The translations under genes and the position numbers were made by a program. The notes under the pieces are model-generated. The model worked only from the letters and a program-made list of their open reading frames with translations, was not told the DNA's origin and did not search any database. 64,000 nucleotides of DNA. Source: Tetradesmus obliquus. Lineage: Eukaryota; Chlorophyta; Chlorophyceae; Sphaeropleales; Scenedesmaceae. Below are positions 38,864 through 53,756 of this stretch, one piece after another. Where the stretch lies: the NCBI GenBank assembly GCA_030272155.1, contig CP126200.1, positions 4,774,001 to 4,838,000 on the forward strand, read 5' to 3'. Position 1 is the stretch's first letter, and the number at the start of each line of letters is the position of its first letter.

Positions 38864-40316
38864 CCCTCAGGTGGTGGAGTTGGGCCTGCGGTTGCGGCAC
38901 TCACATTGTGTTTCCCAGCTGTGTCTTACAGATAATGTGTGGCAGCAGACAGATGCAGCAGCAGTGGCACAGCTGCTGCAGGCAGCCTTGCGTAGCCCGC
39001 CTACAGCCAGCCACAGCTGCAGCAGCAGCCAGGAAGATCTTGACGACCTGGCAGCCTGTGTGGCTGCTGTCTGCAGCCTGCCAGCAGCACTTTTACTGCC
39101 AGCAGCAGCAGCCGCAGCACTGCTGGAGCAGGCCGTGCAGCTGCAGGTGTGCAGTGCAGCTTTGGACGCCCTGTGCAGCCTGCCAGCCATGCAGGACTTC
39201 ACTTTGGAAGATGCCATGCGCCTGTTGAAGGCGCTGCAAGGGCCGGCAGCCATTGCCGCTCCCCGCTCACTCCTAACATGGCTAGTCAGCTTGTCAGCAG
39301 GGACAGCAGATGGACAATTTGTTGCAGCAGCAGGCCTGGCTGTGGAGCAGCTGCAGGCTGCTGCTGCTATGCATGATGTGGCAGCGGTGCGCGCGCTGTG
39401 CAGCTGCCCAGCCGTGCTGGCGCTGTCGGCGGGTGAGGTGGCGGAAGTCTTCATCGGGATGGCTGAGACCCTCCAACATAACTTCGCTGCTCGCGCTCAG
39501 CAGCACAAGCAGCAGCTGCTGCAGCAGCAGCACCACCACCAGATGCAGCAGGGGCAGCATCAGCAGCCGCAGCGCAGCATCTTGTTTGGCGGCCACCTGC
39601 CAGACGATGAAGCATTTCAGCATATCCTTGACGCTGTGTTGGGTCTGCCTCAGTTGCGTGCCGTCACTGCAGCCCAGCTGTCAGCCATTGTGGCAGCTGC
39701 AGCGTGCAACTTAGGCAGCTCCACAGTGCAGCACCTACTGATGGCTTTTTCCCTGCACGCAGCAGCTGTTGCTTTGCCACCGGATCTTGCAGCTGGCATC
39801 CTCGCAGCAGCAACTGCTGCAGGCGACAGCGACTGCCTGTTCCACCTGCGCAGTTGGCTGCCTGCCAACCAGCAGCTAGATGCTGCGCAGCTAGAGCTTG
39901 CACTGCAATCAGCATTGCGCTGCACGCAGCCAAGCACACAATATGGCAGCTCGGAGTGTGTGCGGCGGCTACTGGAGCTGCCAGCAGCAGCAGCAGTGAC
40001 AGCACGGCAGGCTGCCAGGCTGCTGGCTAATGCGCAGCAGCCAGGCAGCAGCAGCAGTGACGCATTGGTGCTGTTTGAGCTGTGCAGGGGTCTGCCTGCA
40101 GCGCAGGAGTTAGAGCCGCATGAAGTGGAGCCCTTGCTGTGCTGCGCAGTGGCAAACGGGGACTGGCTGCAGGTGCAGAGCCTGGCGGCGCTGGCGGGAG
40201 CAGCACGCATTGGCAGGGCAGCGGCAGATGGGCTGCTGGCAGCTGCGCGTGGCAGCGGCTGCAACATGAAAGTGGTAGCAGTGATGAACCTTGTGGCTGC
40301 ACAGCAGGTTGAGTAG
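37532..40316 (+). CDS. Leu/Ala-rich helical-repeat protein
   Basis: Exons 37532-38137 and 38544-40316 join in frame to 792 aa. The donor is CAG/GTGAGG and the acceptor follows a good pyrimidine tract (GCTCCTGATACAG). After an Ala-rich N-terminus, GVNEVLEICIQQSFDAHSV and CLAASSRGFQQRF resemble a degenerate F-box-like start. The rest is a string of about 30-40-residue Leu/Ala helices, often ending in CSLPA, CSCPAVLAL or LRGLCS-like words, with a His/Gln-rich loop near the middle. This suggests an alpha-solenoid adaptor. I do not recognise a named family. The last roughly 280 bp are duplicated just downstream. The start ATG was chosen because the frame before it has only TTG starts. Confidence 0.65.
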
Positions 40317-40404
40317 CGCTGGGACTCGAAAGCAGAGTGCTGGACTTTATGGCATGTTTTCAGCAGATGGGGGAGGAGCGGCGACGACATATCGAACAAG
40401 CTGT

Positions 40405-40672
40405 TGCAGCCAGGCAGCAGCAGTGATGCATTGGCGCTGTTTAAGCTGTGCAGAGGGGTGCCTGCAGCGCAGGAGCTAGGGCCGCATGAAGTGGTACGCT
40501 CGCTGTTTTGGTTTTAGAGGGGATTGGCTGCAGGTGCAGAGCTTGGCGGCGCTGGCAGGAGCAGCCCACATTGGCAGGGCGGGTGGAGACGGGCTGCTGG
40601 CAGCTGCAAGCTGCAGTGGCTGCAACATGCAACTGATGGCCATGGCGACGAACCTTGTAGCTGCACAGCAGT
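40405..40672 (+). pseudogene. Decayed direct copy of the helical-repeat gene 3' end
   Basis: This repeats 40033-40313 with roughly 85% visible identity (for example QVQSLAALAGAA and CNMQL in place of CNMKV). It has an in-frame stop after VVRSLFWF and several frame changes. It is a truncated tandem duplicate of the last coding segment, without the rest of the gene. Confidence 0.85.
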
Positions 40673-41726: not shown

Positions 41727-41733
41727 CGCAGGC

Positions 41734-41821
41734 CAGCTAAGTCACATGGTAACGGCTTCCCACAGGTGGTAGGGTACCATACCTACTGTTGGTAGAGTAT
41801 TATACCAAACTTTGGTACGGC
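41734..41821 (+). repeat. Left terminal inverted repeat of the KDZ element
   Basis: It starts CAGCTAAGTCACATGG and ends TTTGGTACGGC. It is rich in GGTA/TACC words in both orientations, which could be binding sites or fold into hairpins. It is identical to the reverse complement of 53613-53700. Confidence 0.95.
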
Positions 41822-42475
41822 CGTCAGGGTCGTGCTGGTTGTTACAATAATGCACAGAGCATTATATTAGCAACATCTGCATTGCGCAGAGCCAGCTGAG
41901 CTGAGGAATACAAACTGCCGGCTAGTGGGTCCGCTTCCACTTGCTGTCCATTGGCTCTGAATGCAAGAAATGCAGAAGAAACAACTTTTGAATGATCAAA
42001 ATCATTAATAACTACCTTCAGAGTCCGTCAACATCGCAACAGCTCCACATGCACGGCCATTGCGTCATGGCTGGCATGGTGACTGTCAACGCAGCATTGG
42101 GTGCAGGCCCAGGCAGGCCTGCTGCTACAAGCTTGTGGCCGGCTGTCACATGTCTGGTGATCATCTGGAGCATCTGGAATATGCAACTGTAAACATTATC
42201 TCAAATCATAGTAACAACCGTTGTGTGTTCTTGATGGTGTCTCACTAGACCCTGCGGTGACACCTTCTCCCCCAGCAGCACTGCTGAGTATGTTCGGTGC
42301 CTATCAAACCCGTTCGATGTTGTAATCAGAAGGAGATTCACTACTTCCCTGGCATGGGTCGACCTGTACTCTTGCTTTTACCGAACAGTTGTTTCTGCTC
42401 CCCGATGATGGATCAACGCATGCAGTCATAGCTGCCACGAAGAAGGCCATAGATCCTGTAGCAACCATCACGTCA

Positions 42476-45295
42476 ATGAGTTCGACGAGTACGGCAGCTG
42501 GTAGCGTCAGCTCAGACGACCAGACAACAACCAACAAGGTAATACGCGCCCAATTCTCGTCAGCACGGGTGCCGTCACTCTGCTTCCAGATCAAGTAACC
42601 TTAGGTTCAAACTTGTTCATGTGCAGCCACTGGGCAAGCTGAACAAGCGGGCTGCCGAAGCGATCGCCGAGCAGCAGCAGGGGCAGGGGCAGCAGAGGAA
42701 GAAGCAGCGCAGCTCACAACAGCGTGGGCGAGAGCATCAGAACACGACACAGGCAGCTGAAGACGGAAAACAGGCAGAACATGATGCGCTTGGGCTGCCG
42801 CAGCAGCTTCTGAAGCTGCAGCGGCAGATGCAGCAGCAGCTGCTGAAGCTGCAGCGGCAGCTGCCCAGCTCTCAGCAGTGTGGCCAAGAGCATCAGAACC
42901 AGACACATGAGTCTGAGAAAGAGGAGGAGGAGGTACTAGATGACCTGGAGACAGTGCTGCAGCAACTGCAGCAGCTGCGGGAGCTGCAGCAGCAGCTACA
43001 GGGGCAGCAGCTGCAGCAGCAGCAGGATACGGCCAATGCCACTGCCAAAGCCGCCAGAGAGGTCAACCACAGCCAGATCCGAGCGCGCCTGCTGGAAGCT
43101 GTGCAGAAGTATGCTGTACAGCTGTTGGACAAGGGCGACATCATCCTGCTAGTGCTCCTCCCCTACCACAACAGTGCTAGCCTGCGCACGTTCACTCAAG
43201 GCTTAACGCGAGAGCAGCTGAGCGCCATCTTGGAGGTGCTGCTGCGTCACCCAACCGGCAGCCTAGGGTGGGCCGAGAAGCGGGTGCAAGCACTGCTGCG
43301 CAAATTAGGGGCAGGTGAGGTGATCCGGCTGAAGGCTTGGTGATATCTAGCAGCTGCCAGTGCGGGGGTGAGGGCTTGTAGTTTTTGCCTCCGCTACGTC
43401 AAACTGAGGCCGCACTCAACATATTGTCATCTTGCGGTGTACATGCCACAGGCGTGTAGCAAGCGGCTACAGCTTATGCGCACATTGCATGTGACTTGCT
43501 GCCTGCCCTGCCGTGTGCTTGTGCTGCAGGTGCCGCCCCCGGTGGCGGCACGCAGGGCACAGCACAACAGCAGCAACGACAGTACAGCCAGCAACAGCTC
43601 TACAAGGTGGAATACCCCTCCAAAAAGAAGGTGAATAAAGAGGAGTGCAGTGAGGAATGGAGTGACACTGAGACAGCATCAGAGGAGGAGGCAGGGTCTG
43701 CTGGTGCAGCACAACGCAGGAGCAGCAGGCGCAGCAGGAGCCACGAGCGTGGCATTGGCAGGGGCAGCAAGCGCAACAGGAGCCGCGAGCGTAGCAGCGG
43801 CAGGGGCGGCAGCAAGCGCAGCAGAAGCTGCGAGCGTAGCAGCGGCAGGGGCAGCAAGCGCAGCAGAAGCCGCGAGCGTGGTAGCGGCAGGGGCAGCAGG
43901 CACAGCAGGAGCCGCGAGCGTGGTAGCGGCAGGGGCAGCAGGCGCAGCAGGAGCCGCGAGCGTGGTAGCGGCAGGGGCAGCAGGCGCAGCAGGAGCCGCG
44001 AGCATGGCAGCGGCAGCAAGCAGCATCGTGCAGCTGCAGAGGCAGGTGTGTATGGAGAGCCAGAGCGCCAGCTTCGGCGTGTAGCCAATGCAGGTGGTGC
44101 AACACGCGCAGCTGCTGCCACTGCTGCAGCTGATGCCGCTGATGACGCTGCTGCAGCTTATGACGCTGCTGCAGCTTATGACGCTGCTGCAGCTGATGAC
44201 GCTGATGACGCTGCTGCAGCTGATGACTGGGCGGCACGCAGCAAACTCAAGCGGCTGCACCGCACAGATGCATGGCGCCAGGCGCAAGCGTCTCAGGCTG
44301 CAGGGCATGCTGATGCACTAGGTGTCGGTGCTGCTGCACCTTCTTGTGCAGCAGCTGCCGGGGAAGCAGCACCAGCAGCAGCGGCAGCAGCAGCAGCAGC
44401 AATTGAACAGGAGCGAGCGAGGCGTGAGGCAACAGCCTTACCATGTGTACTGAAGGCGCTTTTGGAGGGTAGACTTGAAGCGCAGGCTGTTCAGCCCAGC
44501 TCCGCTTGCACTGTGTTTCACATCTGCAACGCTGCTGCGTTGGCTTACACAGGTAAGTAGTCACAGATGGTTTCGGGAACTTGGATGATGTGTGACGGAG
44601 ATGCGGTGGTTGGGCTTGGCGGGGCAGATCAGTGGTCAAGGCTGATAACGCACATGAGACTTTGATGCTCAGCTGTGGCATCACTCCCCGCGGTTCACAC
44701 ATTGCAACATGGTCACACTCATCAACGCATGCACTGGTGCAGGTGTCAAATGCAGCAGCATGACCTCGTCATGACGCTTCTTTGCTTGATTAGTCAAACG
44801 ATTATTGTTAACACTCACCATTGCTGCCACTGCTACTGCACTGCCGCCAGCTGCTGAAGCTGCAGGGACCTTGGATCATTTGGACCTGAAGAGCGCACTG
44901 CGCATGGCAACGGGCTGGCCGCTGCAACGCAAGACGAAGGAGCGTTCGTGGTGTGACGCTGCTCAACAGCTGTTGCAAGCTCACCATAGGCGCTGCAAGG
45001 TATGTGGAAGGCTCCACTGTACATGTGGAGAACGTAAGGTGGTGCATGTGGTGTGCTATCAGGTTGGCATTGTGTCTGCGTGGCGCATGTTGTGTCCTGC
45101 CTCAACTCAGCTGCGGCCGCTTGAGTGCGGTGCTGTGCGTACGCCACCCCTGTAGATTGTTTGGCATGACTGACTTGACGTATCCTGTGTTGTCGCTCTT
45201 CTGCATAACTTGCTGTCTGTTGGTATGCCGCTTGCTTACTCGGCAAGGAGCAGCAGCAGCAGCAAGGGGGCCCACAGCAGCCGCAGGGGCGGCAA

Positions 45296-45336
<41 letters not shown>

Positions 45337-45370
45337 GCAAGGGGGCCCACAGCAGCCGCAGGGTCGGCAA

Positions 45371-45401
<31 letters not shown>

Positions 45402-45591
45402 GGCAGGTAGAGGTATGTGCCGAGGTACGTAGCCAGGGCGCCTACGGCAACGATGCTGCAACCACGGCTGCTGCTGAGGAACGGCGCTACGCAAAACCAT
45501 CAGCAACAGCCCCAGCAGCAACAACACACAGGGAGGCAGAAGCGGACCAGCAGCGGCGCGCCCCTACCAAGCAGCGGCAGCAGCAACGGCA

Positions 45592-45623
<32 letters not shown>

Positions 45624-46213
45624 AATCGGTCGGTGAAGCAGCTGTGCAGCGGCAGCGCTTGCCGCGCAAAGCGGCTGCTGGTGTCGCCAGCGCAACGCAA
45701 GCAGTGCTCGGCAACAGCCAGGAACTGACAGCAGCAGCAGACGACGCCAGGGCAGTTGCAGCTGCGCAGCGTGCTGCACTGCCAGCTGATGTCCCAGCTC
45801 CTGCCTCGAACGCGCAGCACAACATGGTGCAGAAGCTGAAGACAGGTGCCCTGGTGAGTGCCGTCGAGCCGGCCTTTGGTATGAAGTCATGCTAGCGCTT
45901 GCATGCAAGCAGTAGAAGTCGTAGTCCATGATTGTCACCATAGTCCATATAGTGCCCGCATGCCGCCACAACACCATTCCTGAAAGTCACTGGATGTGGA
46001 TTGCAGGGCATTGACGTAAAAGGCCTGGTGGCAGAGCTCGCGGGTGTAGAGGCGCGCTTGGCGGCAGGCGCGGACAGCGTTGACGCTGTTGAGGAGGATG
46101 TTGCGTATGCTGCAAAGCTGACAGCGGCTTTCACGAAGCCGCATGCTGGTGTGGAGGCAGCTTTGGCAAAGGCGCGCAGCGCTGTGAACGCAACCAAATT
46201 CCCAGCTTGCTAG
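42476..46213 (+). CDS. Transposon-borne Gln-rich/RS-repeat protein, function unknown
   Basis: Six exons join in frame to 906 aa: 42476-42538, 42627-43314, 43530-44552, 44866-44999, 45248-45853, 46007-46213. All introns have GT-AG ends with good donors (GTAATA, GTGAGG, GTAAGT, GTATGT, GTGAGT). In order the protein shows a Ser/Thr-rich start, a charged Gln-rich coiled-coil-like part, a helical segment (LLEAVQKYAVQLLDKGDIIL), an SR-type domain of six or seven 16-residue units (RSRERGSGRGSRR-like), Ala/Asp repeats (YDAAAADDADDA), Gln tracts and a C-terminal helix (KGLVAELAGVEARLAA). No family is recognised. It lies inside the KDZ element and converges with the transposase, so it is probably an accessory element protein. 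The RS domain suggests RNA or splicing-factor contacts, by inference only. Confidence 0.8.
43726..44012 (+). repeat. 48-bp tandem repeats encoding the RS domain
   Basis: About six units of 48 bp, each encoding a 16-residue RS/RG block. Units 4-6 are nearly identical at the DNA level (AGGAGCCGCGAGCGTGG then TAGCGGCAGGGGCAGCAGG), so the array expanded recently. Confidence 0.9.
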
Positions 46214-48858
46214 AGTCTGGCCTTCACAGCTGTCCTGCCTGTGCGGTGGAATGTAGCGCTGTGATGTTGGTGGTACGAGTGCTTTGGCCTGGTTTGCATG
46301 TCTGGAAGTGCACATGAGTGTGGTGCACCGGTTGTTGGTGACGTCATCTAACATGTTACACTCGAGTAGCTTTATGCGCCGGCAATAGCAGCTCATGCTG
46401 CGTTTGTGGTGGCTGCAGGTCATACAGCGTGGTCAAAAGCTCAGCACTAGGGTGGTGTCAGTCTGCAGAAGCGCGGCTTTGGCTCTTGCTTTGGCGGTAG
46501 TTATTGTTTCAGGGTGTGTGCGACTGCAGCTATTGGCGCTATGCATATGTTTGGGTGCAGGCCGTGGGGTTTACAAGCAGATCATTGACGGGTTTGGTTG
46601 ATTTGCAGCAGAGTTGAAAGCACACAAAACCAGCAGTGCACGCATGATCAGGCCTAGCCCTGCCATGGCGTGCAATTGTGGCAGCTTGCACCATGTGCAC
46701 AACAGCCACAACATGGTGCTCAGCACTGTTGACGCCGTGTAACACTGAACAAATGGCAATCTAAGGATGATGATCATGCAGTGCATCGGGCATGCAGCAC
46801 TTGCAGCCACATCGAGTTCTGGTTAGAATGTAGGCAGCGGACCCTTGACCCTTACGCCTGCATACTCACTCACGCAAAGCAAATGTGGATAGTTTCTTGT
46901 TGAACATGTGCCTGCAACGCTTGTGTAAGCGCCAGAAAGCAGGTGTTGCCTGCCACCTCAAGTTTCGCCAGCAATCCTCAAGATGATGTGACACATCTCG
47001 CCCAGCCCGCCCTGATGTGACTTGTTGGTTGCCGCGGTACGCAGCCAGAGAGATACATGACTGGACCCAACGAATCGCGCAGTTTGGAACTGCAGCACTG
47101 TATCTTTGCTGCCACTGTCAACAGCTGTACACATCAATACACCTGCTGCCAGATGGCATCATGTCTGCTGGTTTTCTGCAGCTAGCTGGTAGGTATGCAA
47201 CACGATTGCTCCCCTGCAAGCATCAAGTCGGTGCGGTACTTCCAGAATGCAGCAGTCATTCGATGAAGAGTCGTAAATTGCGTCAGTAGAAACTGTCCAC
47301 GCACTGGATCTGCATTACAACGCCACAAATTTGTGCAAGGCCCTGCACTACTAGTGCCGTAGTAAGGGTGTAGTACATCAGCATATGCATATGTCGGCCC
47401 TCAAGCCACGGCCATGCCCGGCTGCACTGCTCAGAACAACCTCACAACTCAGCTCATCAGGCAGCAGTCGTGCCCGTTGACAATGCTTGATGCATTCTTG
47501 CGTTGCACTGGGTATCATGCTGCGCAGCTCATCCCAGCAGCAGTGTCACCTGGCACATCCACAGCAACACTTCAAGCTGCATGGTGCACACACTTACCAG
47601 CGCATGGCACGCGCTGCAGCGGCTGAGCATGGCGACTGCTGCACTGCAGGGACTAGCATTACTTGAAGGATGGAAAGCATTGTCTGGGACAGAGCGTATG
47701 CGATGTGCAATCGAGTTTCAACAGCGATTGCAATAAGGACGGTTGTTCTGCTGTGGCTGCAGCGCATCCTGCAAGAGTTGCGCAGTTTCAATCAGCAATG
47801 TGCGGCATTCCTGCACTGTCGCTTCAACTTACCTGCAGGCACATGCAGCAGCGGCTAATAGATGCAATGCGGTGCTGCAGTGGCTACAGCAGTATCTTCA
47901 CAACAGGCAGCAGAACTTCTGCTGGCAGCAACGTCACCATGATATCATCAGCTGTTGTGCCAAGCAGCAGATGCGCGCATAACTATGAGTTTCACTCAGC
48001 AGTGTGGCCATTGCATTCTACTGTGCTCACTCTCCTTTTCTGGTCTCAGACCTTGTGTTCAACCTGTTGTGGCTCATACCATCTAAGATGGTGCCCAGAC
48101 CCACATGTAACTATCCTCTCTCATTGCAGCACCCCAGTCCAAGGTTGATGCAGTAGCCGCGACAACCCGGTAACAGCCGCGCCCACCGCTATCTCCAAAC
48201 CCGTGGCTCTGTGTATGCTGCAAGTGCGCAGACGACTGTCTGCCTGTCCGCTGTGCACACGCCCTTTCCGCTGCCGAATGAATCACTGGCTGCATGTGTC
48301 ATTGTATGGAAGTGGTCTAGTTGCGCAGTGTCTGATGAAGCATGGCAAGATTCTACTCTGGTGCATTGTACATGTAGTGCATTCCGGATAGGCTCCTTGA
48401 TTGTTTAGGTTTACACAGAACAAGTTTTACGTGTGCACGTCATGGCATATTCATCAGCCAAACAACTTGCAAGCAAGTGGCGAGTCAGCTGCCAGCTCAC
48501 AGTGAGCTGCACGCATGCGCTAGATATGCCGAGATCTGGTGCCCTCAACAATGGCTGCAGTATCCGCACAACTTGTGCGATGTGCAGAAACGCCAACAGC
48601 ACAATGAATCCCTCATGGCCCCAACAGACACAAGCGCAGCTTAGCACACAGCAAAGCACACAGTTTGACACCATGATGGTACAGCAGTTGGTGCCATCGC
48701 CTTGGCACATGGGGCAGCACAATGCGGAATACTCAGCAGTTGCTGTAGCACCATATAAAAACAAGCACAGATGGGGCTGCCTTCGACACATTGTCAACAA
48801 TATCAATACACGGCACGCACGCGCCAGCACAACTTTGCGCCGCGTTTGACGGTGACCA
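46214..48858. other. Spacer between the two convergent KDZ-element genes
   Basis: About 2.6 kb with no recognised gene. Short open frames occur (for example 47630-47736, ALQGLALLEGWKALSG) without splice support. A TTACA at 48411-48415 is a possible poly(A) signal for the transposase and a TGTAA at 46924-46928 one for the RS-repeat gene. Confidence 0.4.
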
Positions 48859-51800
48859 TCAAGTCAACCGCGCAAAGCACTCGGTGGCCTGTTCGTGCCA
48901 CAGCTGGTGCTTTTCTGCGTTGCGGCGCAGCAACACAGCAAGAGCTCCATGCACGGCACTCTGCTGCAGGCCGTCTTTCACTGCTGCAGTACAGCCAGGC
49001 GGCCTATCCTGCGCCACACTCTCCGCCACACTAGCCTGCAGCTCCTCTGCTGCCTGCTGCTGCGCCTGGCTGGCCTCCATGCACACACGGCTCACATGCA
49101 GGAAGTACTGCTTGGTGCGCTCCCGCTCGAAGCGCTGCATCACCAGCTCCTCAATTGTTCTTGCCTCCTGCACCATGCACAACTCCATGTGAGATCGCTG
49201 TGCTCATCTCAGATCATGCTTATCAGCATGAAGGCACCACACGCAGCGTTGCAATGCTTGTAGCAAGGTACACAATGCACTAGCACCCAGTACTGTTTCC
49301 CAGCAACAAATCACAAGGCAGCATGAGCTATAGCAAGACGCTGCCCTTGCTGCAAACTACTATTCTCATGCTACTCTGTCGGCTCACCTCTGCACACGCG
49401 TCCCTGAAGCGCTCGGCCAGCATCGCTGCAACAGCAGCGCCGCTGCCACCAGACCCGCACCGCCATGGGCACTCGCCTTTGAACAGCTTTGTTACCTCTG
49501 CTTCTGTCCAAGCTGCCGGAAGCTGCTCGACTGTGCTGCTGCTGGGCGCGTCCTCCGTCTGCCAGCTGTGCATCACGCCCACTAGCTGCCGCACACGCTT
49601 GCGCCTGCTTTGCGCCTGCTTCTTCTGCGAGCGGGTGATGCGGCTTGCTGCCCCCTGCTGCTGCCTCGCGTGCGTCAGCACAGAGAGAGCAGACACAAGC
49701 TTCTCTATCTCCGCCTGCAAGCTCTGCAGCTGCTCATCCCTCAGAGCAGCTAAGCCTGCCCTGTACTCATCGCTGCTGCGGTCCAGTGGCTCTGTGATGT
49801 TCAGCTTGGTCATCAGGGCACCCAGCTTCTGCTGCAGCTTCTGCTGGCGTGTTGTATCTCGGCCACGTGCATGCAGCGTGCGGCCCTCGCTACCTGGCAG
49901 GGCCACTGAGAAAGCAGTGGCGTTGCTGTGCAGGTGCTGCAGCGCTCTGAGCTGCTTCTCATTGCGCACGTAGTCCACCTGCGCATGTTGAGCAAGCGAC
50001 ATGATGTCACGCAGATGAGACAGATGAGAACCTGCCGACTGCACACGGCAGCCCCTGAGCAGCAGCATGCAATGAGCAGGCAACCATGCACGGCAAACAT
50101 GAAGAGGCAACAACTGGGTATTGGGTACTCACCAGCAGCTTAAGGCGCGCAGCGTCATCGTCCAGCGCTGCAGGCGCTGCTGGTGTGCTGCTGCAGCTGC
50201 AGGCATCCACCGCTGCGTGCATGAGCTGCAGCTCAGTGAAGCCCTGCTTGCGCGCCAACTTCACAAGGTCCTTGTAGTGGTTGCGGCACTCCTCTACAGA
50301 CAGCAACATTAAGCACTTGCATCATGATGAGCTCACGAAGCACAAGACGGCAAAAGGCAAGCAAGGAAGACCCGCAAGTGCGCTGCTATGTAATAACCAC
50401 CAGTTCATACACTGTGGGCAGGACCCACATTTCACATGTCGCATGCCGATGTTCACATGTCGCTGTTCACGCAAAGCGCGAGGAGCAGCATGCTGCTCAC
50501 CAAGCTTGCGCAGATTGCTCTTGTGCTGCTGCACCATGAAGGGCACAAACCCTGCCATGCGCGATGATGCCACGAAGCCGAGGGCGTCGTCGATGCAGTC
50601 CAGGTAGTTTGGCATGGCCATATACCTGGTGACCGATGCAAGGGGCTTGAGCTGCGCCCACAGCTGCTCGCACATCTCGCCAACACGGCGGCATGCACCT
50701 ACAGCAGCGCCAAAGGGCAATGGTGCAGGTAACGTTGCAACACAGCAGACAGGTGAAACAAGTGTGTATTGTACAGAGCACGACTACAGCAACCAGATGC
50801 ACAGATGCAGCTGGCAGTCACCATCATTGGGCGCCACATGCCAGGCATCGAGCGCGCAGCTGCAACATGAACAGCTGTGCAGATGCACCCGCATGCGCGT
50901 GTATGCATGCAGAGCCAGCGCTTGTAGCACCTCACCAGGCAGGTACAGGCCGGAGTAGCGCAGGCAGCAGCGCGCGCCATGCCCCCTGGCATGCCACCAT
51001 GGCAGGCGAATGTGGCGCGGCGCATCTTCTTCAGACAGGTGCAGCAGCCGGTGGCGGGAGTAGCTGCAGCCTGTGTCCAGGTACATGACGTCCACGCGCG
51101 CGTCCAGCAGCAGCATCTGCAGCGCTAAGTCATAGTACACAAAGCGTTCAGGCGCCGGCATGGCCATAAACATCCCAAGCAGTGGCTGCCCGTGGCTGCA
51201 CACGCCGCCAGCCAGGCCACACACGTCGCTGATGCCGCTGAACAGCGAGGACTCCCTGGCGCAGAGCAATCGCGGGTGGCACTCCCCGCCCAGCTCAATG
51301 CTGATGTCATCTTCGTCGCGCTCAGCACGCTGGCGCTGCGTTGCTGACAGCTCACCAGACTCCTTCATCAGCCACAATTGCCTGTGCGCCTCATCAAGGA
51401 AGCGGCCCAAAACATGTGCCGTGCCGCTGTAACCGCCACTCCTGCCTGCTGACGTGTAGTGGTTGAGCTTCACCACAGCGTCGAAGGCCGCAGCGGTCAG
51501 GATGGGGCGCTCGCCTGGACTCCATAGAGGAATGAACTCGTCAGCAGGAGCTGATGGCAGCATGCAAATCAGATGGCAGAGCAGGATAATGGGGTTGGTG
51601 TGTGTTGCTGCAGCAGTTTTGTGCTGCAGGCTGCTGCACACGTGATTGGCTCAGCAAGCATAGAACAAATGACACCACTGGACTCAGCTGCTGCATGCAG
51701 TTTCTGATGACCAGCTCACCTGGAAGCAGCCCCGCCGCCAGAACTGTTTGCGCACTCAGCCCGCAGACAGCCGCTGCAGCAGCTGCGGTACCTGTAGGGA

Positions 51801-53114
51801 TGCAACATAGCAGACAACTCATGCGCTGAAGCTGTGCAACACACACCTGCAACTTTGCAAACTGTGCTGCAGCAACAGCATGGTGGCACGTACTGCAAAA
51901 TGATTACAACATCTCAACATCTCAATGGACATGTTGCTGCAGCACGTGGCATGTGAACCATTGCAGTACCGCTCACCGGCTGCAAACAGGTGCGCGGCTG
52001 AGTGACCAGGTACCAGCGTGTCTGCAGCCAGACAAGCAGCATCTGAAGAGGCACGAAGAAGCGTCCTTAGCATTTCAGAGCAAACAAGGGTTATTGCTTG
52101 CGCAACATAAGAGAGTGTCAGCTGCTGCTGGCAGCGGCTGCTTGTTACCTGCAGGGCCTGGCGTGCCAGCGCATGCTGGGCACAGCGCTGCAGGGCCCAG
52201 GCCAGCAAGCTCTGCTCGCACCAGCGCATGCGGGTCGTGTTTGTACTCAGTCGCACGGCTGTACTCAACCCATGCCCACTGCAGGTCCCTGCAGATGACA
52301 GGCAGCATGTTTGTCAGCTCCTCAGCATGGCAGTGCATGCTGATGTCTTCAGCCTGTTGGGTACTTACTTTGCGGTGATGGATGGCACCGGGTCCTGACC
52401 AGCTGGCTGCGCTGCTGAGACAGCAGCTGCTGCAGCAGCATTGATCACTGCGCAGGCAGCATTGCTGGCGTCAGCATAGGCGTGCGTGCTGAGGCCAGCC
52501 CCAAGGAGCAGCTCCCTGTACAGAGTCAAAAGCTGCTTGTCAAACCAGTGCGTGGGCGACACTGGGGTGTTCCCCCAGCAACCAATATGTGCAGGGCAGA
52601 CCTCCCACGTGGCATCACAACCCCGACATGTCACAGTCGGCACTGCCATCCAGAAGCTTGTGCCGAGAGCATGGTAGGCTACAGATCTGCTGCTACCAAC
52701 TGTGATGCAGGCGTCAGCAGACAGCACACTGCAGCACCAGTGACGCTGCAGCGCTGTTGCAATCCGACCCTCCATCAGCTGCATGCTGCTCTGCAGCTGT
52801 TTCAGCTGCTCATCAGCCTCCTGGTATGCCTCATACTGCTGCAGGCTGCTGATGTTGGCAGGCCTGCGATCCTGCCAGCTGCGGTTGAGCTGCTGCACAC
52901 GCTGGCACTGCTCACTGCCGCCATCGCCCAGCACCTCCACCCCAAGCAGCTCTTCCAGGTCCACATCTAGAGTGTCACTGTCCTGCCTGTGCCGCCTGGG
53001 CTTTGTTCTACTAAAGGGATCAGGTGGCACAGGCTGAACTAGCCTTTTCCTAGTCTGTTTCTGATTCTCAGCTGCGTAGCGGCGCAGCTGTTCGGTCCGA
53101 GACATGAAGTTCAT
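48859..53114 (-). CDS. KDZ-family (Zisupton-like) transposase
   Basis: Nine exons join in frame to 978 aa: 53114-52369, 52288-52149, 52021-51977, 51791-51720, 51550-50936, 50698-50501, 50293-50133, 50038-49388, 49167-48859. KDZ landmarks in order: a Cys-rich N-terminal module near residues 160-185 (CRGCDATWEVCPAHIGCWG) followed by SPTHWFDKQLLTLYRELLL; a CPAC motif; GGVCSHGQPLLGMFMAMPAP and FVYYDLALQMLL; then VMYLDTGCSYSRH and LPWWHARGHGARCC; then GEMCEQLWAQLKPLASVTRY, the GEG/E-W-like helix seen in this family. The C-terminal third is coiled-coil-like (KLQQKLGALMTKLN). The first catalytic Asp region, usually D..F.L.R, is not obvious in the short exon 3, so catalytic completeness is unproven. 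A second Met (53105) is an alternative start. No stop or frameshift is seen. Confidence 0.88.
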
Positions 53115-53612
53115 GATAAAAGGGCTTAACAGCTTCAATGAGTCAAGATCATCATAGCAGCAAGCGCGAAGTCTGCATCGCCACTAAACGTTCACGGTCG
53201 TTGCTGTAGGTTGACGCAGCTTAGAACCGGCGGTGGATAAAACAAAGTGTGCAGTATGAAAAGCCTGTGAATTCCTGTGAATGGTTTGCTGAGCGGCATC
53301 ATCCCCAAGGGCGTTCAAATTTGTATCATGTAACTAACACTGCTTGCCAGGTAATGACCCGCAGCAGCCCGCAGTGTGGATGGATGGATTGCAATGTAAC
53401 CTTCAAGAAATGTCTATGTCAATATATATCCACCACCTGTCACTCCAACGAGCATTGGCTAGCACTGAATGGGGGCAGTGCTGGGCAGTGCCTGCACTGC
53501 TGGGACGGTGCTGTGGTGACCCAGCCATGACGCTGCCTGCGGCTTAGAAGAGGATACCCAACCTGAATGTTTGTTATTTAACGTTGAAGGGCACGAGTGC
53601 GAGTGCTTGGCT
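53115..53612. other. Transposase 5' region and inner flank of the right terminus
   Basis: About 500 bp between the transposase start and the right terminal repeat; it should hold the transposase promoter. No gene is seen. Confidence 0.5.
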
Positions 53613-53700
53613 GCCGTACCAAAGTTTGGTATAATACTCTACCAACAGTAGGTATGGTACCCTACCACCTGTGGGAAGCCGTTACCATGTGACTTAGCTG
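53613..53700 (-). repeat. Right terminal inverted repeat of the KDZ element
   Basis: The reverse complement matches the left repeat at 88 of 88 positions. Identity stops at the inner edge, where the sequences become unrelated, and at the outer edge, where CGCAGGC follows. Confidence 0.95.
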
Positions 53701-53756
53701 CGCAGGCTGCGGCTGATAGCATGCTGTGCTGTGCCTAAGACACGAATGGACTCCAC

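Follow-up and report, generated by a model that had tools for sequence, protein, structure and literature searches.

The window, i.e. the whole 64,000-bp stretch of Tetradesmus obliquus DNA that was analyzed (C10:4774001-4838000), very probably (at a probability of about 0.93) contains a complete cut-and-paste DNA transposon of the KDZ superfamily that has two genes and an insertion footprint closest to that of the Kyakuja lineage. The element spans 11,967 bp (window positions 41734-53700); a preliminary description of this DNA had delimited the feature as 41727..53707, which includes both target-site duplications. The assignment to the KDZ superfamily is strongly supported by a Pfam KDZ match, terminal inverted repeats (TIRs), target-site duplications, recurring copies and the empty sites of relatives. 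Table 1 lists the coordinates.

Table 1. Features of the KDZ element in window coordinates
Feature	Position	Strand	Basis
Target-site duplication, left (CGCAGGC)	41727..41733	.	read at termini
Left terminal inverted repeat, 88 bp	41734..41821	+	genome matches and direct comparison
Second gene, six exons, about 905 aa	42476..46213	+	splice model from sequence
Second gene, exons	42476-42538, 42627-43314, 43530-44552, 44866-44999, 45248-45853, 46007-46213	+	
KDZ transposase, nine exons, 965 aa	48859..53114	-	splice model and Pfam
Transposase, exons 1-5	53114-52369, 52288-52149, 52042-51977, 51791-51720, 51550-50936	-	
Transposase, exons 6-9	50698-50501, 50293-50133, 49978-49388, 49167-48859	-	
Right terminal inverted repeat, 88 bp, same as left	53613..53700	-	direct comparison
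Target-site duplication, right (CGCAGGC)	53701..53707	.	read at termini

The terminal sequences of the element are CAGCTAAG on the left and CTTAGCTG on the right. Direct comparison from the outermost bases verified the 88-bp identity claimed in the preliminary description, with 88 of 88 bases matching, and a repeat search of the window returned the same inverted pair as 93 nt at 98%. The heptamer CGCAGGC, earlier described as duplicated directly outside both ends, does abut both termini; such a match would be expected at random in about 6 of 100,000 cases (4^-7, by arithmetic), and the eighth flanking base is unequal (C versus T). The two genes face inward and start 0.6-0.8 kb from the nearest element end. 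The tetramers TACC/GGTA occur eight times in the 88-bp TIR versus 3.0 expected from shuffles (2 of 2,000 reach eight), five times in 80 bases of a sister-family end (reached by 13 of 2,000 shuffles) and ten times in 90 bases of a third-family end (0 of 2,000); as this motif was picked after inspecting the sequence, the counts are descriptive. Folding of the TIR as a hairpin is no stronger than that of shuffled sequences (z 0.13). The GC content of the window is 52-62% in 4-kb steps. A plastocyanin assembled from three exons has its best match among PDB sequences in 2plt, from Chlamydomonas reinhardtii, without being identical to it; with the GC content, this indicates a green alga that is not C. 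reinhardtii. Adjoining the element on the outside is a tandem duplication (window 40048-40640) with a spacing of about 360 bp and pieces that are 84-87% identical.

Nine transposase exons had been proposed to fit in phase, and they do join through GT-AG introns with a single terminal stop to encode 965 residues. Like that of the second gene, this splice model derives from the sequence alone. A ten-exon model with an additional 38-nt exon (50859-50822) was dropped because this exon breaks the downstream frame, whereas joining exon 5 straight to position 50698 keeps it. Residues 430-587 match the Pfam KDZ profile (PF18758) at 74.7 bits (cut-off 26.6; 1.1e-20), a profile without matches in any of 14 control genomes, and a CxC3 match (CxC cysteine cluster) stays below its cut-off (21.4 versus 26.6 bits). 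Acidic residues of the D450/D500/E554 type are catalytic in KDZ transposases, and these three candidate residues are the same in the sister-family transposase. A scan for a viral relative, performed with exon 5 alone and hence detecting close relatives only, gave three pattern matches, none of which was confirmed.

The second intact gene noted earlier is likewise open through all six exons and encodes a Q-rich protein of about 905 aa with RS/RG repeats. Its fifth-exon acceptor lies in a CAG run that offers five in-frame options 3 nt apart (45248-45260). No Pfam family scored above cut-off for the second-gene protein or for eight further ORFs within the element, and neither of the two genes nor these eight ORFs gave a TET/JBP match. 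A second-gene query without repeats yielded 46 genome matches, all of which fell within copies of these elements when positions were compared by eye (one, on C5, in a copy without mapped ends, and one, on C11, in a split copy). Between families, transposase dN/dS is 0.28 and 0.29 (545 and 535 codons) and that of the second gene is 0.40 and 0.39 (206 and 205 codons), values that cover alignable codons only and are therefore biased to conserved parts. The product of the second gene, which all 46 matches place within these elements and which two families have kept, may assist in transposition or in controlling it.

The window alone displays just two inverted copies of the TIR, as would a local inverted duplication in which two copies of one 88-bp sequence flank two genes by chance and nothing is mobile. 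The preliminary description had suggested a genome search with the 88-bp repeat as a check, and this search (104.66 Mb, 17 contigs) refuted the local duplication: the ends are not unique to the window but recur on C4 and C6, where they bound similar 11.8-kb units (C4:4754450-4766217 and C6:5512246-5524058). Relatives with 7-bp duplications and empty sites, described below, also argue against a local event, which retains practically no probability. The left-end TIR query found 12 genome places at 97-100% or 76-77%, including the element's own two ends and partial pieces. In addition to the two-ended copies, the transposon's own family comprises a copy without one end (C6:5808764-5819833) and a fragment with a single end (C6:3456309-3457771). 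Two more TIR pieces in opposite orientations (C4:4754358-4754449) adjoin the C4 copy on its left, and GTACTAC is present on both sides of this copy, 3 bp off its ends. These pieces and the displaced heptamer may be the trace of aberrant excision or repair.

The four long copies of the own family share pairwise identities of 97.9-99.0%, and those nearest to the window copy are at 98.8%. By the present gene model, both genes are open in the window copy only; in the remaining three long copies, gaps break the frame of the transposase as well as that of the second gene. The window copy is the only candidate for an autonomous copy found in its family. Two gaps, one of 4 bp in exon 3 of the transposase and one of 1 bp in the second gene, are common to the copies at C4:4754450 and C6:5819833, yet these copies occupy different sites and the one comparable flank differs, so that a broken copy probably moved. 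Exon and intron divergence within the family are alike (about 1.0-1.3%) and dN/dS ranges from 0.47 to 1.02, which reveals no clear coding constraint since the copies split. TIR identity was rejected as a clock: the C4 copy, too, has kept its TIRs identical, and one TIR of the C6:5512246 copy contains two mismatches, with overall divergence at about 1.2%, so the age of the element cannot be read from its perfect TIRs.

A protein search of the genome detected further loci at 49-72% identity to the window transposase. The sister family has the same terminal octamer as the window element; its TIR query found 21 genome places, 19 of them matching from its first base, and the TIRs of two sister copies are perfect over 63 and 65 bp. 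On C4, three sister copies (1307944, 1363320 and 1474514) are nearly identical over 12.3 kb, with 100% (rounded) identity in one stretch of 6,740 bp (at bit scores of 12155, 12151 and 12146) and another of 5,557 bp (10022, 10016 and 10016). Their flanks are unrelated over 300 bp (ungapped identity 23-32%), which excludes a segmental duplication, and their target-site duplications are all different (GTCGCAG, TTGCCAG and GTTAAGG). Near-identical copies in unrelated flanks establish that the sister family moved very recently on C4. All three contain a nested 586-bp insert that is absent from the C6:79402 copy. At C4:1308094-1308679 this insert has an AAGCAG duplication, and the repeat has many further genome matches at 97-100% identity. 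Near the start of transposase exon 1, the C4:1307944, C6:79402 and C5 copies have a TAA where C13:4120856 has a sense codon; C4:1363320 and C4:1474514 give the same protein-search score as C4:1307944, with one TAA. This observation suggests that the TAA-bearing copies moved in trans, unless translation starts further on.

Several other loci were recorded during the survey. The two ends of a sister element, with pieces of its genes, are separated by 48 kb at C11:2870994-2919442, which looks like the result of a large insertion. A third-family element of 1.2 kb (C6:6080303-6081539) has ends of 89 bp (93%), matches the beginning of the second gene at the DNA level and is likely a non-autonomous derivative. 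Five KDZ matches of equal score, about 24-26 kb apart, were located at C3:7390909-7489888 but were missed by the window-transposase query; they may form a tandem array or represent several giant elements from a different KDZ lineage.

Target-site duplications were counted in 12 copies with both ends read, after the C11 copy and all one-ended or truncated copies had been dropped beforehand. An exact 7-bp duplication borders seven of them (the window copy on C10, C6:5512246, C13:4548625, the three on C4 and C13:4120856), six bases are duplicated in two (C7:515302 and C6:6080303), in one (C4:4754450) the 7-mer lies 3 bp away from both ends, and two have none (C16:3986871 and C6:79402). Related copies have the same kind of ends, and more than half of the copies counted have the exact 7-bp footprint. 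For each of the seven exact insertions, the two flanks were joined and used as a query for empty sites; 40 of 192 candidates were scored, which makes the following counts lower bounds. Paralogous empty sites were obtained for at least two of the seven insertions, both of them relatives of the window copy. For the C13:4120856 insertion, a paralogous site without interruption lies at C13:4131039-4131287 (79%) and has a single GCCTATC. C4:1474514 sits in a repeat for which the search gave at least 24 uninterrupted matches; the five best-scoring of these were fetched and all have a single GTTAAGG. A 78% match for C6:5512246 extends just 9 bases beyond the junction and was not counted. No empty site for the window copy or three other exact insertions was among the 40 of 192 candidates scored.

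Recent or ongoing mobility had been proposed from the start. Recent movement holds for the C4 sister copies; for the window copy we infer it from the exact duplication and the open genes, and present mobility is unproven. A transposon copy that is now immobile, with genes open by chance or recently and a transposase that is inactive or silenced, has a substantial probability, somewhat short of even. The nearest copies are about 1.2% diverged, three of the four full or near-full copies are broken and clear coding constraint is not seen within the family, all of which would fit such a copy; its intact ends, duplication and reading frames and the very recent movement of the sister family, however, argue against an immobile copy. 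In a functional element, the 965-aa protein would bind the TIRs, with the repeated TACC/GGTA motif as a possible binding site, and excise the element by a DDE-type site with D450, D500 and E554 as candidate residues. Joining to a target with a 7-bp stagger, followed by fill-in, would produce the duplication, and copies with a broken transposase were probably moved in trans by intact ones.

The label KDZ/Zisupton given in the preliminary description stands in its KDZ part (Pfam score of 74.7 bits, TIRs and target-site duplications) but not in its Zisupton part, given duplications of 7 bp and not 8 bp. According to the accessible portions of PMC12730594, Zisupton elements have 8-bp duplications and Kyakuja elements have 7-bp duplications with CA...TG ends. 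The window copy has CA...TG termini and an exact 7-bp duplication, one of the two lengths (7 or 8 bp) of KDZ elements, and this duplication fits Kyakuja better than Zisupton, as judged by footprint. A Zisupton-type element in the strict sense would share the KDZ domain and the long TIRs but is improbable, as the eighth base differs in the window copy and the other six exact cases are 7 bp as well (7/7), versus the 8 bp of Zisupton in the accessible text (PMC12730594).

Among known Kyakuja elements, Kyakuja-1_LB of Laccaria is described in the same portions as having a KDZ transposase, 7-bp duplications and 5'-CA...TG-3' termini like the element studied here; the Laccaria elements lack TIRs and carry a TET/JBP gene, in contrast to the 88-bp TIRs and lack of a TET/JBP match in the transposase, second gene and eight ORFs scanned here (PMC12730594). 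KDZ1 of Cryptococcus, whose movement was directly observed, is similar in its size of about 11 kb, long TIRs, KDZ core and several full-length copies but differs, as far as the accessible text describes it, in 241-bp TIRs, 8-bp duplications and CxC1, where only CxC3 below cut-off was found here (PMC12810828). The giant KDZ elements of Ectocarpus, as portrayed in the available part of PMC12477816, resemble the T. obliquus elements in carrying additional genes, in nested insertions that are fixed among copies, in broken transposases and in suspected local hopping. The same part gives sizes up to 30.3 kb in Ectocarpus and mentions an active element of 31.7 kb in Chlamydomonas reinhardtii, compared to 11,967 bp here (PMC12477816). 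Zisupton and Kyakuja elements are also reported from green algae related to Chlamydomonas, in the accessible part of PMC8226300.

The element is a further member of the known KDZ class and a good but not unexpected example of it. Among the titles listed by literature searches on KDZ, Zisupton, Kyakuja and Tetradesmus genomes, none names this element, which is not proof of its being unpublished. A more tentative and rather doubtful proposal is that these elements form a green-algal KDZ lineage of their own, in which 7-bp insertion of the Kyakuja type and long TIRs built of the iterated TACC/GGTA motif occur together with an obligate element-specific second protein in a two-component transposition system. 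Such a two-component system for KDZ is not described in the accessible portions of PMC12730594, PMC8226300, PMC12810828 and PMC12477816.

The KDZ element of the window is complete and apparently autonomous, with both genes open, its ends defined and a footprint of 7 bp, and it has relatives that moved recently. The empty sites of these relatives can be read in the genome, which makes the mechanism of the little-studied KDZ superfamily and the role of the second gene testable, and the ends of the element are a potential insertion tool for algae.
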